This document shows positions 679 to 15,156 of a stretch of DNA of 37,279 bases, in pieces. Source of the DNA: Clostridia bacterium (GTDB taxonomy: Bacteria; Bacillota; Clostridia; Oscillospirales; CAG-272). A program made the translations under genes and the position numbers. Each line of letters opens with the position of its first letter. Within the stretch, counting starts at the first letter, position 1. Location of the stretch: contig JAFTTS010000025.1 in the NCBI GenBank assembly GCA_017466685.1, positions 1 through 37,279 on the forward strand, read 5' to 3'. The notes beneath the pieces are model-generated. The model was not told the DNA's origin. It saw only the letters and a program-made list of their open reading frames with translations, and made no database searches.

Positions 679-721
679 TTGACTTTTGTGCTACATAATG
701 CTATAATAGTTTTGTGCTACA
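679..721 (+). promoter_or_regulatory. promoter and repeated operator of the RHH gene
   Basis: TTGACT (679-684) and TATAAT (702-707) are separated by exactly 17 bp. A 12-bp direct repeat, TTTTGTGCTACA, occurs at 684-695, overlapping the -35 edge and spacer, and again at 710-721, at the transcription start region. The second copy extends to the imperfect palindrome TTTTGTGCTACAAAA. The copies are 26 bp apart. The arrangement suggests autorepression by the ribbon-helix-helix protein encoded just downstream. Confidence 0.75.
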
Positions 722-737
722 AAAGTGAGGTGAGCAA

Positions 738-911
738 ATGAGCCCACGCACAGGCAGACCGACAGATAACCCGAAGTGTGCGCCAATGCACGTTAGGCTT
801 GACAAGGAATGTGAAGAGATACTGACATCCTACTGTGAGCAAGAAAAAGTAAACAAAACAGAGGCGATACGACGGGGCATTAAAAAATTAAAGTCGGATA
901 TAAAAAAATAA
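738..911 (+). CDS. ribbon-helix-helix (CopG/Arc-like) DNA-binding protein, 57 aa
   Basis: This small gene has a good Shine-Dalgarno (GTGAGGTG) before ATG 738. The protein begins MSPRTGRPTDNPK, followed by a beta-strand-like segment MHVRLDKECEEIL, then a helix-turn-helix part YCEQEKVNKTEAIRRGI and a lysine-rich tail. The strand-helix-helix order and the 'V-N-K-T-E-A-I-R-R-G' helix are typical of ribbon-helix-helix repressors, which bind DNA as dimers through the N-terminal strand. Such proteins in plasmids and integrative elements usually repress their own promoter. Here two operator-like repeats overlap that promoter. A predicted antisense RNA ends at the stop codon of this gene. It could instead be the antitoxin of a pair, but no toxin-like partner is visible. 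Confidence 0.85.
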   Translation: MSPRTGRPTDNPKCAPMHVRLDKECEEILTSYCEQEKVNKTEAIRRGIKKLKSDIKK

Positions 912-993
912 GGTTTGTGGAACACCTACCAAGTAACCCCACAAACCTCAAACCAGACAGAACCACTCTGTCGAAACAGAATCGCCCTATCTG
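902..993 (-). ncRNA. predicted ~90-nt antisense/small RNA
   Basis: A consensus promoter on the minus strand (1000-1028) would start RNA near 993. The transcript contains a stem GACAG/CTGTC (972-956). It ends in a 10-bp perfect stem, AGGTTTGTGG (948-939 on the minus strand) with CCACAAACCT, followed by TATTTTTTTA, a good intrinsic terminator in this direction only. It runs against the RHH gene and stops at that gene's stop codon, so it is complementary to the leader between the RHH gene and the ORF at 1062. The order copG-like gene, counter-transcribed RNA, downstream gene is the layout of the pMV158 plasmid copy-control module. Existence of the RNA is inferred from promoter plus terminator. 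Confidence 0.6.
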
Positions 994-1028
994 AAATCTA
1001 TTATACATCAGATACGCGGTTTTGTCAA
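988..1028 (-). promoter_or_regulatory. promoter of the antisense RNA with a flanking palindrome
   Basis: Read on the minus strand, TTGACA (1028-1023), a 17-bp spacer and TATAAT (1005-1000) form a full consensus promoter. A perfect 7-bp inverted repeat, TATCTGA (988-994) and TCAGATA (1008-1014), flanks the -10 box symmetrically and could be an operator. Confidence 0.75.
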
Positions 1029-1061
1029 GAACAAAATTTAAATTGAAAGGTGTATATACCA

Positions 1062-1400
1062 ATGAACGAAACAGCTAATAACACGGATATTCTCAAACCC
1101 CTCTCCGATCTTCTTCGCCACACTGATGACAAGATCGTCAGTTTGGCGATCACCATCGAACACATAAAAAGTCTGATGTATTTTCTCGGTGACTTCTTCA
1201 GCTTTGAAACCATATCCCCCGAGCGCATCAACGACCGAGACACACGCGACAAAGCAGTTTTGCATCTATACAACTATCCGCATTACCGGAGCTTATATGA
1301 AACAATATCCGCAATGCTCATGGACGGAGAAGATGAAGCCGAGCGAATAGGGCAGTGCATCGACAATGCTATGACGTACATACTCGCAAAACAGCGATAA
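1062..1400 (+). CDS. element protein of unknown function, paralogue 1 (112 aa)
   Basis: I place the start at ATG 1062 (MNETANN), after GAAAGG, rather than the in-frame GTG at 1050. The protein is acidic and mostly helical, with no signal peptide or membrane segment. The central segment has LLRHTDDKIVSLAITIEHIK, then MYFLGDFFSF and YPHYRSLYETI. It is clearly related to the protein at 1559-1906: both have the order LLR / I..I..L M.FL..FF / YxHYR. I recognise no family. It is the first gene behind the RHH gene and the antisense RNA, so it may be the target of that control circuit. A stop and the next SD (GAGGGGGAGG) follow directly, so the three small genes at 1062-1906 look like one operon. Confidence 0.7.
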   Translation: MNETANNTDILKPLSDLLRHTDDKIVSLAITIEHIKSLMYFLGDFFSFETISPERINDRDTRDKAVLHLYNYPHYRSLYETISAMLMDGEDEAERIGQCIDNAMTYILAKQR

Positions 1401-4297: not shown

Positions 4298-5554
4298 TTA
4301 TCCGCCTGCAAATGCGTACGGTGATTTAATAGGCAAACGGTATACGCGATCAGCATTAGATTTGCCGTCTACTCGTTTGCGCTTTTGGTCAATCCCTATT
4401 TTTTGCAGCACTTTTGATATCCTTGCCGCCGAACAATTTCTTAAAGAGGGGTAGCAGTCTTTGAAATTTGTAATAGTTGTATACTGCCACCGTTCGGGGT
4501 GTTCCTCGCCCTCTGCAAGAATGTCAAGAATTTCATCCTCATACGGCAATTCCTTTTGATGTGCACCGTTACGTTCTTCTAACATATCACGTTCTTGTCT
4601 GGTAAGTCTGAAACCTTGCAGATCTCCGGCGCACTCATAGTATATCTGCGCCCACAGCTGAAGCGGATCGAGTTTGTCAAGCGTTTCAAGGTTTATTTCA
4701 CCCACCGGAACTGTCCAAAAACGGCGGTTTCCCGTCTGATCTACAAGAAAATCGACCGTGTTACACGTTGCACATAAGTTTGTACGGCGCACGTTGTTTG
4801 TGTCAGATTGTGCATACGGTAGGCGGTATATATCTACGGGCGAAGTTATAAACGCTTTAAGAGATGCTATATCGCCTTTCAATGTGGATTCCACCTCGCC
4901 AAGTTCCGACACCCAACGGGTGACAACACGTCGTGTTGTGTCTTTGTCATATTGGTTGATCGTCAACCCCTCGCCGAACCACTCAGGGCGAATAGCTATC
5001 TTGCGAAAGAAGCTCGTTTTGCCCATGCCTTGCGCTCCACATAGCACGAGTATACCATCTGCGCCGATAGGTCTTGCTTCGTCGTTATTAAGTAAGCATA
5101 TGCCTTGATGAAGCCACTTCTTTACAAGGGTACAAGATAGCTCGTCACCGTTTATATTGAGTATATCGAACAGTACACCCAGCCGATCAATATAATCCCA
5201 TTTGCAGTTAGTGATTTTCTGCCAAATAGGATTATAACGCTTGTCGGTCGCTATTACTTCAAGATACCGTCTAATAGTGTTTTCATTGCATCCGGTGAAA
5301 AGACCGCGGCATTCAGAATGCAGCAGAGTGACAAGAGTATCAAATTTTTTCGAGGGTGGCACGGTAAGATTTTCACCGCCTAAAGCTAAATTGCCTATGA
5401 CATCAATGTTTCCGGTTATCACATTGAGTTTAACGAAAATATCTGTTGATGAATCTAAAACATACCGCAAGTGGTCAATTGTGAACGGCACACGCCTGCT
5501 CGACTTGTGTTCGTTATCTTCCGGCAGATTTTGTACTGTGGAATTCTGTTCCAT
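4298..5554 (-). CDS. VirE/D5-like P-loop replication ATPase (418 aa)
   Basis: This matches the virulence-associated protein E family (PF05272-type), superfamily-3-like helicase ATPases used by phages and integrative elements for replication. A Walker A motif, GAQGMGKTS, sits at residues 173-181, an acidic Walker B-like WVSELGEVEST follows, and a sensor-like segment DQTGNRRFWTVPVGEI is typical of the family. The N-terminal ~150 residues lack a recognisable primase domain, so this is the short ATPase-only form. The C-terminal part (about 345-418) looks like a winged-helix domain (NFKDCYPSLRNCSAARISKV). It lies 11 bp behind the excisionase-like gene in a leftward operon. The role is probably to start or drive replication of the excised element. 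Sequence words based on TGTACAC lie just behind its stop. Confidence 0.85.
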   Translation of the reverse strand: MEQNSTVQNLPEDNEHKSSRRVPFTIDHLRYVLDSSTDIFVKLNVITGNIDVIGNLALGGENLTVPPSKKFDTLVTLLHSECRGLFTGCNENTIRRYLEVIATDKRYNPIWQKITNCKWDYIDRLGVLFDILNINGDELSCTLVKKWLHQGICLLNNDEARPIGADGILVLCGAQGMGKTSFFRKIAIRPEWFGEGLTINQYDKDTTRRVVTRWVSELGEVESTLKGDIASLKAFITSPVDIYRLPYAQSDTNNVRRTNLCATCNTVDFLVDQTGNRRFWTVPVGEINLETLDKLDPLQLWAQIYYECAGDLQGFRLTRQERDMLEERNGAHQKELPYEDEILDILAEGEEHPERWQYTTITNFKDCYPSLRNCSAARISKVLQKIGIDQKRKRVDGKSNADRVYRLPIKSPYAFAGG

Positions 5555-5565
5555 ACAGCCACCCG

Positions 5566-5766
5566 TTATGCCCTCTCCGCTTCACGGTCAAGCCATTCAT
5601 TGAGCTTGTCCACGGGGATAATAATGCGGCGTTCTCCTATGCGTATAGCAGGAAATCCCTCTCGCTTCGTCAGCTCATACGCCACGGGACGGCTGATACC
5701 AAGTAGTTTGGCAAGTTCCGGAACATTGATCGTAAGTTTATCGGTGGTTGTTTGAGAATTAAGCAT
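5566..5766 (-). CDS. excisionase-like MerR/HTH_17 DNA-binding protein (66 aa)
   Basis: A small winged-helix protein with the signature of the excisionase / helix-turn-helix 17 family: LTINVPELAKLLGISRPVAY forms the helix-turn-helix, and FPAIRIGERRIIIPVDKLNE is the wing with a terminal helix. It starts at ATG 5766 after GTGAGGT. Such proteins either bend att DNA with the integrase (recombination directionality factor) or regulate the operon. It is the first gene of the leftward operon with the VirE-like ATPase and is divergent from the XRE repressor, the usual lysogeny-switch arrangement. Confidence 0.85.
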   Translation of the reverse strand: MLNSQTTTDKLTINVPELAKLLGISRPVAYELTKREGFPAIRIGERRIIIPVDKLNEWLDREAERA

Positions 5767-5811
5767 GGTTACCTCACTTTCAAAAAAGTTTTATTTCGTG
5801 TGCGCGATTAC

Positions 5812-5840
5812 ATTATACCACATCTTTGTGTGTTTGTAAA
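5812..5840 (-). promoter_or_regulatory. promoter of the excisionase-VirE operon
   Basis: On the minus strand, TTTACA (5840-5835), a 17-bp spacer and TATAAT (5817-5812). The spacer ends in ATGTGG, giving the string ATGTGGTAT that also occurs in the divergent promoter. Confidence 0.8.
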
Positions 5841-5879
5841 GAGTTTTTGCATAAAATTGTGTAAAATATTTTTAAACTG

Positions 5880-5908
5880 TTGACAATTGTATGAAAATGT
5901 GGTATCAT
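5880..5908 (+). promoter_or_regulatory. promoter of the XRE repressor
   Basis: TTGACA (5880-5885), a 17-bp spacer and TATCAT (5903-5908). It shares ATGTGGTAT at the same offset with the divergent leftward promoter 40 bp away, suggesting common control, perhaps by the XRE protein. Confidence 0.8.
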
Positions 5909-5928
5909 AACGGTGAGGTGATAATATT

Positions 5929-6561
5929 ATGAATACAACTGCAATCGCTTTCCCGGAACGTCTGCGCCAGCTCCGTACAGCCAAGGACTTAACACAGTCC
6001 GAACTTGCAGACGAACTTAACGTATCGAGAAACAGTATTTTCTTTTATGAGGCAGGAAAAAGAAACCCTGATATTGTCGTGCTGAAAAAGATCGCTGATT
6101 ATTTCGGTGTTACTTGCGATTATATGATCGGTGCGTCGATTAATAAGACCGATGAAACACGAGATATAGGCGACGAACTCGGGCTGTCGGATGAGGCAAT
6201 AGCAACACTTAAAGATGTGATGCGAAAGGCAGATAACGATTTTAATGCACTGTTGTACGCGCAAAATATAAATAAAATTATTTGCAATGAAAAGCTGATT
6301 TTTGAGATAGCCACCTTTATATCCCCGAATTATAAAACAATTTTTGCCGACTTCATAGTAAAAGATATTCCTGATCACTCAACAGAAAACAGTAAAAAAC
6401 AGACATTTGAGGATGTCGGTATTCCGTATACACCGGAAACTCGCAAACAAATATCGGAGCTTTTGCGCGATTCAATGGACTGCCGAATTATGCGTCATAT
6501 ACAAGATGAGCTTGAACTGATGCGAGGTGAAGAAAAAAATAATGCCGACAAAAAAGATTAA
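5929..6561 (+). CDS. XRE-family transcriptional regulator (210 aa)
   Basis: The N-terminal ~65 residues are a Cro/C1-type helix-turn-helix: LRQLRTAKDLTQSELADELN, then NSIFFYEAGKRNPDIVVLKK and a third-helix region ending YFGVTCDYMIGAS. The rest (about 75-210) is helical and unassigned, probably for dimerisation or signal sensing; there is no peptidase motif. ATG 5929 follows GGTGAGGTGA. It is divergent from the excisionase operon and overlaps the integrase gene at its 3' end. It is therefore the likely repressor that keeps the element integrated and shares a transcript with the integrase. Confidence 0.85.
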   Translation: MNTTAIAFPERLRQLRTAKDLTQSELADELNVSRNSIFFYEAGKRNPDIVVLKKIADYFGVTCDYMIGASINKTDETRDIGDELGLSDEAIATLKDVMRKADNDFNALLYAQNINKIICNEKLIFEIATFISPNYKTIFADFIVKDIPDHSTENSKKQTFEDVGIPYTPETRKQISELLRDSMDCRIMRHIQDELELMRGEEKNNADKKD

Positions 6562-7690
6562 CGCCAAGAACACCGGCACGGTCCGCCAACGCCCGGACGG
6601 ACGGTGGGAAGCTCGTGCAACCGTAGGCGGTAAACGCCGTTCGTTCTATGGTGATAAGCAAAGCGACGTGGTAAAAGCAATGCGAGCCGCGCTGAAAGCC
6701 TCGGATGATGGCACATACTTCGAGCCGACACGCTTTACTGTGGGCGAATGGCTTGATACATGGTTAAAGGAATACGCCGAGCCGAGCCTTAAGACGCTTT
6801 CCCTCTCAACGTATGAGAGCCGTATCAGAACACACATAAAACCGGCACTCGGTAAACTGAAGCTCTCCGAGCTGAACGCCACGCATATACAAACGCTATA
6901 TAACAACCTCACGCGGCAAGAGGGGCTGTCACCAAAAACAGTAAAGAACGTCCACGGAATACTACACAAAGCTATCTCGCAAGCCGTCAAGCTCCGATAC
7001 ATCCCGTATAACCCTGCGGATGCTTGCGAGCTGCCACGCATGGAAAAACGCGAGGTATCACCCCTTACCGAAGCAGATATAACAGCAATGCTCGCGCAGA
7101 TCAGCGAGGGTGAGCCGCTTCGTGATATGTTCACCGTCACACTGTTCACCGGTATGCGCCGTGGTGAGGTATGCGGATTGTCATGGGATGCAGTCAACTT
7201 CAAAGATGGCACAATCACTGTAAGACAGCAGCTCCAAAGAGAACAGAAAAAAGGCGGTCAGCATTATATCGCGACCACCAAAAACGATCAGATTAGAATT
7301 ATTACACCTGCGCCGTATGTCATGAACATTCTGCACGAAGTTTACAAGCGGCAGATTCAAGAGAGGTACAACGCCGGTACTGCATGGCACAACCCGTGGA
7401 ATCTCGTATTCACAGATCCTCTCGGAAATTTCATCATACCTCAGACAGCCTCGAAGCGTTTCAAAGCGTTATGTGCGAGCATAGGACGACCTGACGCACA
7501 TTTCCACGATATGCGCCACACATACGCCGTTGTATCGCTCCAAGAGGGCGACGACGTGAAAACGGTACAGCAGAACCTCGGACACGCCACAGCGTCATTT
7601 ACGCTCGATGTGTACGGTCATGTGTCGGAAAAGATGAAGCAAGAGAGCGCACGCCGGATGGAGAATTTTATAACCAAAATCAAGGCATAA
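6542..7690 (+). CDS. int: tyrosine recombinase, Tn916-Int type integrase (382 aa)
   Basis: The protein has the three-part layout of ICE and phage integrases. An N-terminal arm-binding beta domain (GTVRQRPDGRWEARATVGGK) is followed by a SAM-like core-binding domain (about 60-165) and the catalytic domain. The catalytic residues are visible: Arg206 in TGMRRGE, His322 and Arg325 in HDMRH, His348 in LGHAT and the nucleophile Tyr358 in DVYGH. ATG 6542 is preferred; GAGGTG precedes it by 12 nt, and an in-frame GTG at 6527 is an alternative. The gene overlaps the XRE gene and points at the tRNA-Ser 3' end 100 bp away, so that tRNA is the expected attachment site. It appears full length and active. 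Confidence 0.93.
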   Translation: MPTKKINAKNTGTVRQRPDGRWEARATVGGKRRSFYGDKQSDVVKAMRAALKASDDGTYFEPTRFTVGEWLDTWLKEYAEPSLKTLSLSTYESRIRTHIKPALGKLKLSELNATHIQTLYNNLTRQEGLSPKTVKNVHGILHKAISQAVKLRYIPYNPADACELPRMEKREVSPLTEADITAMLAQISEGEPLRDMFTVTLFTGMRRGEVCGLSWDAVNFKDGTITVRQQLQREQKKGGQHYIATTKNDQIRIITPAPYVMNILHEVYKRQIQERYNAGTAWHNPWNLVFTDPLGNFIIPQTASKRFKALCASIGRPDAHFHDMRHTYAVVSLQEGDDVKTVQQNLGHATASFTLDVYGHVSEKMKQESARRMENFITKIKA

Positions 7691-7755
7691 ATCGCCGTTT
7701 TTATTCTATCTGGGGTAAAAATAGGGGTAAAACCGAATTTTTGAATATAAAAAAG

Positions 7756-7786
7756 GCTCGAAAACGCTTATGTTTCCGAGCTTTTT
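7756..7786 (+). terminator. intrinsic terminator after the integrase
   Basis: GCTCGAAAAC (7756-7765) pairs with GTTTCCGAGC (7772-7781), with one mismatch and a 6-nt loop, followed by TTTTT. It insulates the integrase transcript from the convergent tRNA gene. Confidence 0.85.
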
Positions 7787-7789
7787 CTA

Positions 7790-7813
7790 TGGCGGAGAAG
7801 CAGAGATTCGAAC
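7790..7813. other. predicted attachment-site core (attR side) in the tRNA 3' end
   Basis: Tn916-type and phage integrases commonly recombine in the 3' end of a tRNA, and the integrase gene lies directly next to this one. The T-arm and acceptor 3' half (7790 to about 7813) is the likely identity block. The second copy would be at the far end of the element, outside the window; I found no duplicate of it at 1-7690. Confidence 0.55.
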
Positions 7814-7880
7814 TCTGGAGACCCGTTAAGGCCTACACGATTTCCAATCGTGCGCCCTCGACCAACTAGGCGACTTCTCC
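7790..7880 (-). tRNA. tRNA-Ser (anticodon GGA)
   Basis: On the minus strand the gene begins GGAGAAG and ends CTTCTCCGCCA, so CCA is encoded. The anticodon arm is CACGA-TTGGAAA-TCGTG, anticodon GGA, reading UCC/UCU. A long variable arm (about 20 nt, with TCCAGAG before TTCGAAT in the T-loop) is typical of serine tRNAs. The acceptor stem GGAGAAG/CTTCTCC is perfect. The 3' end faces the integrase, so the mobile element has inserted there and left the gene intact. Confidence 0.95.
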
Positions 7881-14836: not shown

Positions 14837-15089
14837 CCCAAAGCCACAAATGTCGTCTCGCCACTCAAATCTAACTTTTCTCACCGACGTGAGTTGGCGA
14901 AAACGAACGATTACCGCTAAACGAGCGAACTGAGTGTGCCCAGGAGACCAACCAAGAAAGGACGTCCTGTTTCTAACATGGGAGAGATTCCAAGAGAGGC
15001 AACCCTTGTTATCCCCTCCCAAATGGCGAGGCTTTATACCGGTCAAAGCCGCGAATGCCATTTCCTTGCAGAAATCCGACATTTTATTA
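14837..15089. other. unassigned 250-bp spacer
   Basis: Between repeat copy 1 and the lysA promoter. A small hairpin, CTCAC/GTGAG (near 14880-14892), and a purine-rich GGGAGAGATTCCAAGAGAGG stretch complementary in part to CCCCTCCC (15013-15020) are present. Short frames on both strands lack ribosome sites. I see no recognisable gene or riboswitch. Confidence 0.4.
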
Positions 15090-15118
15090 TTGACATAACA
15101 CACCACGTGTGCTATAAT
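15090..15118 (+). promoter_or_regulatory. promoter of lysA with a palindrome in the spacer
   Basis: TTGACA (15090-15095), a 17-bp spacer and TATAAT (15113-15118). The spacer contains the palindrome CACAC-CAC-GTGTG (15099-15111), a possible operator. The leader is under 40 nt, so no lysine riboswitch is present. Confidence 0.8.
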
Positions 15119-15156
15119 TTAAAGTAGAAAATTTTATATTCAGGAGCGAAAAGACG

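Follow-up and report, generated by a model that had tools for sequence, protein, structure and literature searches.

An RHH repressor gene paired with a predicted antisense RNA: a probable two-layer silencing unit of P22 immI design in Bacillota

Near the start of a 37,279-nt contig of a Clostridia bacterium (JAFTTS010000025.1, positions 1 to 37,279, here called the window), a small ribbon-helix-helix (RHH) gene is followed by a predicted antisense RNA on the opposite strand and by a third gene. This module is probably a two-layer silencing unit built like the immunity I (immI) region of phage P22, and it occurs in prophages, phage-like elements and chromosomes of Bacillota. The arc-sar-ant switch of P22, known from Salmonella phages, is a better parallel for it than plasmid copy-number control, as which an earlier note on this DNA had described it. 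Other parts of the same note are supported, namely an RHH autorepressor, a countertranscript directed at the leader of the gene that follows, and a circuit "rewired to another job".

The RHH gene, its promoter and its putative operator

The promoter of the operon (TTGACT-17-TATAAT, with TG before the -10 element) lies at 679–707 on the forward strand. It is accompanied by an exact 12-bp direct repeat, TTTTGTGCTACA, at 684–695 and 710–721 (+), which is the putative operator. The RHH gene itself (738–911, +) encodes a 57-aa protein of the GRPTDNPK family that matches phrog_876, a transcriptional repressor, with an E value of 3.5e-14. All of these elements were found where the earlier note had placed them. 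Repeats at this promoter are a family-wide trait: repeats of at least 9 nt flank it in 73 of 122 modules and in none of 122 shuffled ones, and their sequence differs from copy to copy. The AlphaFold model of the RHH protein has CopG, ORF56, ParG and Arc as its top PDB matches, with Foldseek E values of about 1 and TM scores of 0.5–0.8, so that the likeness holds at the level of the fold only. Comparison with Arc and Mnt by hhalign gave probabilities of 2% and 9%.

The leftward promoter and the predicted antisense RNA

A leftward promoter matching the consensus in 12 of 12 positions (TTGACA-17-TATAAT) occupies 1000–1028 on the reverse strand and is conserved in relatives. Judging from its position, transcription would begin at about 993, roughly 70 nt 5' of the ATG at 1062, and the predicted antisense RNA is about 90 nt long and has two stem-loops (903–993, -). 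The leftward RNA from 993 to 896 has a predicted folding energy of -43.9 kcal/mol (z = -8.0 against shuffles). It ends in a terminator hairpin (908–950, -; stem 911–920/939–948) that abuts the RHH stop codon, and the U-run of this terminator is encoded by the AAA codons of the last lysines of the RHH protein. The terminator loop, GGUUACUUGGUAGGUGUU, contains a YUNR motif (UUGG). An inverted repeat around the leftward -10 element (976–1025, +), general in the family, is covered by the antisense RNA in its 5' arm and not in its 3' arm. The Shine-Dalgarno (SD) sequence of ORF 1062, GAAAGGTG, follows at 1045–1052 (+). The fully consensus promoter, the predicted RNA of some 90 nt ending at the RHH stop and the distance of its start from ORF 1062 had all been described in the earlier note and are borne out here.

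A similar leftward RNA is predicted elsewhere in the window, running from 463 to 362 (-), again with a 12/12 promoter and an inverted repeat around the -10 element. Its hairpin loop, UUGCUUGGUCGGCGGU, adjoins the stop codon of a phage gene for an 84-aa protein (phrog_6244), and no RHH gene is present there. By eye, this loop could pair in 11 of 12 bases with the target loop of RNA 993–903. An Rfam search of the window returned one tRNA and otherwise chance matches, the antisense RNA being absent from Rfam.

Conservation of the module among relatives

Relatives of the RHH gene were gathered from public genomes and viral contigs, and other long ORFs of the same DNA served as controls. Of 170 distinct RHH loci, 66 have a leftward promoter matching at least 11 of 12 positions at 25–150 nt beyond the stop, compared with 14 of 2,000 control ORFs; at a threshold of at least 10/12 and over the same range, the counts are 115 of 170 and 59 of 2,000. 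Conservation so far above the controls argues that the module is not a product of chance. The distances from the RHH stop to this promoter cluster at 66–91 nt. The terminator is likewise preserved, a stem of at least 7 pairs abutting the RHH stop at 72% of loci, compared with 6% of shuffled sequences and 19% of control ORFs. Lysine codons among the last three of the RHH genes are AAA rather than AAG in 203 of 227 cases (203:24), compared with 686 of 1,064 internally (686:378; p = 3e-15), a bias that is expected if these codons must double as the U-run of the terminator.

The 82 nonredundant loci with an abutting stem have 56 distinct terminator arms, meaning that pairing is preserved although the sequence varies. 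In the nearest relative, L002, whose RHH protein is 82% identical, the stem is intact with another sequence, and a 12/12 leftward promoter is present here too. When 67 stretches from promoter to terminator were aligned with MAFFT, RNAalifold returned no consensus pairs, because stem lengths vary and the aligner displaces the arms; conservation of the stem was thus judged per locus against shuffles instead. In the loops of the family, UUUG is counted 34 times (15 expected) and UUGG 21 times (26 expected). As it is UUUG and not UUGG that is over-represented, the argument for a U-turn is modest.

A phylum-wide scan found the layout preserved in most copies. The earlier note had named the loss of the RNA signals in relatives that keep the RHH gene as the sign against its reading; most relatives show no such loss, 142 of 172 having a leftward promoter of at least 9/12 at the corresponding position. 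Real losses of the leftward RNA signals do occur in tandem arrays. The largest array described here, L196 (G113:C12:711000-719500), has six tandem RHH genes with differing operators, and the leftward RNAs are intact at the last two and decayed at the others; shorter arrays lie at L003, L059, L068 and L086. Genomes G057 and G113 each carry 14–17 RHH copies, many with the RNA and with a DUF6809 gene or another small gene in third position. Similar antisense hairpin RNAs also abut genes for small hydrophobic, type-I-toxin-like peptides (L147, 7447–7564; L086, 675–796). At the DNA level, a search of plasmids with the module gave no match and a search of phages gave matches limited to the promoter and the 5' part of the RHH gene; the RHH protein is present in only one plasmid record.

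The leader and the predicted anti-SD switch

In the relatives, the part of the leader that separates the target hairpin from the ribosome site forms an inverted repeat with the leftward -10 element at its centre and with arms of at least 8 pairs in 51% (6% expected). Its 3' arm is complementary to the SD sequence over at least 8 pairs in 49% (3% expected), clear instances being L036, L112 and L216. This enrichment persists when the promoter spacer alone is scored, so the -35 element does not account for the anti-SD. As the antisense RNA of the relatives starts at the loop, the 5' arm is covered and the 3' arm is left uncovered. In 78 modules, the median unpaired probability of the SD sequence is 0.485 for the full leader and falls to 0.025 when the antisense-covered part is removed (p = 4e-10); with a shuffled arm, it is 0.465. 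The leader of the window copy itself has an anti-SD no better than chance (P = 0.18), for which reason the antisense RNA may act there by duplex formation and decay or by transcriptional interference, or the switch may be degenerate. The earlier suggestion of attenuation in place of a direct block of the ribosome site is thus the better fit for the family in the light of the anti-SD data, which lend it no such support in the window copy.

The third genes

The third gene of the window, ORF 1062 (1062–1400, +), encodes a helical protein of 112 aa, and ORF 1559 (1559–1906, +) encodes a protein of 115 aa. The two are paralogues with 34% identity, and neither has a match in Pfam, NCBIfam, PADLOC or PHROGs, in agreement with the earlier description of two downstream paralogues that are not Rep proteins. 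A search of viral contigs for their relatives found none, and a fold search with the all-helical model of ORF 1062 (pLDDT 76, from 3 sequences) gave no significant match. A third paralogue in the same genome, on contig 15 (G000:C15), lies directly 3' of a Bro-N antirepressor gene, and this pair adjoins divergent XRE-like regulator genes. This paralogue is the best clue placing the ORF 1062 family in immunity control, and we infer from it that the family may have antirepressor action.

The products of 98 third genes were compared with Pfam, which assigned 18 to DUF6809, 7 to Bro-N, 3 each to Rha and ORF6N, and one each to P22_AR_N and KilAC; no Rep family was among them. In PHROGs, anti-repressor families are the commonest match of the third genes. 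Of 36 nonredundant viral modules, 20 have an antirepressor gene within 2 kb downstream and 2 have one upstream. In all six annotated phages considered (6/6; Streptococcus, Clostridioides and Fusobacterium), the RHH gene and the leftward RNA signature are followed by an antirepressor as the first or second gene, and in several the cassette sits amid structural genes, as in P22. L148, a viral contig encoding an RHH protein 84% identical to that of the window, has a Rha-like gene in the downstream position, by tblastn homology. Chromosomal copies most often have DUF6809 as the third gene and seldom an antirepressor (5 of 66).

Surroundings of the module in the window

The module lies in an integrated element that encodes a tyrosine integrase, an excisionase-like protein, a CI-like repressor (5929–6561) and a VapE-like helicase. 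These genes and a tRNA gene (7793–7880), which lies beside the integrase gene, span 4298–7880 and resemble a satellite- or prophage-like element severed at the contig end. The left end of the element is absent from the sequence because the contig start falls within it. The stretch 3' of ORF 1559 (1943–2450) is gene-poor and contains repeated blocks (TTTTTTAGGGC..., TATATAG..., TACGCGCGAA...).

Proposed mechanism and alternative explanations

The operator repeats and the fold suggest that the first layer of silencing is the RHH dimer, which would bind the repeats over its own promoter and shut the RHH-ORF operon. The second layer, to which the anatomy and its conservation point, would be an antisense RNA, some 90 nt long and terminating at the RHH stop, that is made constitutively from the leftward promoter. 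The U-turn loop of this RNA would kiss the matching loop of the intercistronic leader, whereupon pairing would extend along the leader and, in most relatives, free the anti-SD arm, which would then close the ribosome site of the third gene. That gene would remain silent in a quiescent element and be expressed in a burst upon entry into a naive cell or upon induction. In phages, the gene silenced in this way would often be an antirepressor, the gene that wakes the dormant virus. In the window, ORFs 1062 and 1559 may have a related role in immunity control, for instance against the CI-like repressor encoded at 5929–6561.

A less probable but still credible explanation is that the cassette is a generic and portable limiter of expression, silencing whichever small accessory gene (moron) of a mobile element lies behind it, and that the ORFs of the window have nothing to do with repressor control. 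The high variability of the third gene (DUF6809 in 18 of 98, many outside any family) and the numerous chromosomal copies, 14–17 per genome in G057 and G113, speak for it, whereas the strong antirepressor bias in viral contigs and the paralogue of ORF 1062 behind an antirepressor gene speak against it. It is unlikely that the module resembles a toxin-antitoxin system, with a toxic third gene, the RHH protein as an antitoxin-type regulator and the RNA as a second brake in type I style. Antitoxins commonly have the RHH fold, the downstream ORFs are small, and L147 and L086 have type-I-toxin-like peptides with similar antisense RNAs; against this stand the leader of about 120–150 nt that separates the RHH gene from the third gene in place of an overlap, the 57-aa length of the RHH protein without a toxin-binding tail, third genes that are mutually unrelated, and the fact that those of the window match no PADLOC model. 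For a type II system in particular, Pfam, NCBIfam, PADLOC and PHROGs show no toxin family beside the RHH gene (ORFs 1062 and 1559).

We consider it rather improbable that the leftward RNA works chiefly in trans as a small RNA, or that it is mostly a side product of a promoter disturbing transcription of the operon. Loops alike in many copies would permit cross-pairing, and the window has a similar RNA at 463–362, but the stems vary while complementarity is kept (56 distinct arms at 82 loci), as for a cis-acting pair. Most doubtful of all is copy control of the pMV158 copG-rnaII-rep type with ORFs 1062 and 1559 as new replication proteins. It shares the gene order (RHH gene, countertranscript, downstream gene), and CopG is the nearest RHH fold; yet none of the 98 third genes is a Rep gene, the module is almost absent from plasmids, with one plasmid record holding the RHH protein, and RNAII is shorter, begins inside repB and has no U-turn (PMC4485353, PMC5703833). 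The plasmid-type reading of the earlier note is accordingly disfavoured.

Under the preferred reading, a two-layer silencing unit of immI design, the data indicate that the arc-sar-ant design is shared by phages of streptococci, clostridia and a fusobacterium, with an RHH protein that is not recognisably related and with a different antisense mechanism. Antirepressor control in Gram-positive prophages thereby becomes directly testable, many small genes without an assigned role (DUF6809, the ORF 1062 family) gain a handle, and dozens of naturally diverged repressor/antisense pairs are on offer. More speculatively, and with little weight, the cassette could be a widespread and hitherto undescribed immunity unit of Bacillota made of RNA and protein, with operator and RNA-stem specificity particular to each copy; the RHH(+RNA) units of tandem chromosomal arrays would then be captured copies, and when a phage with a matching module arrives they would repress its antirepressor operon in trans. 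A literature search found no description of an antirepressor combined with CopG and a small RNA in prophages.

Comparison with known systems

In the P22 record, arc (14861–15022) is followed by sar on the opposite strand (15021–15090; terminator 15021–15058), ant begins at 15091, and Psar lies at 15097–15125. The region has been termed the "ant moron" (PMC2629481). Like immI, the module has an RHH repressor gene with putative operator repeats over the operon promoter and a predicted two-stem-loop antisense RNA over the intercistronic region. The match of the layouts is exact at the repressor stop, where the sar terminator abuts the arc stop and the predicted terminator abuts that of the RHH gene. 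The antisense promoter of P22, Psar, is internal to ant, and the ribosome site of ant is covered by sar, whereas the leftward promoter of the window lies 5' of the ribosome site, and the anti-SD switch predicted for the leaders of its relatives is unlike P22. P22 also has mnt, which the module lacks, and sequence comparison gives no convincing sign that the RHH protein is homologous to Arc or Mnt. The next gene in P22 is the antirepressor ant, whereas ORFs 1062 and 1559 are not Ant; since the window differs in this feature, full membership is withheld from a module that would work like immI.

With copG-rnaII-repB of pMV158, the module shares an RHH gene, a countertranscript in the intergenic region and, as predicted, control at the level of translation. 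It differs in that its third gene is not Rep, its RNA is about 90 nt long instead of 48, its antisense promoter lies outside the third gene instead of inside repB, and its RNA has a predicted U-turn loop, a feature that RNAII lacks (PMC4485353, PMC5703833). The attenuators of pSK41 (RNAI) and pT181, in which the antisense RNA is predicted to free an arm of the leader for closing the ribosome site (PMC5703833), follow the same principle as the predicted anti-SD switch of the window's relatives. These attenuators control Rep and, as described, have no RHH partner in the operon (PMC5703833), whereas the module joins its predicted antisense RNA to an RHH gene.
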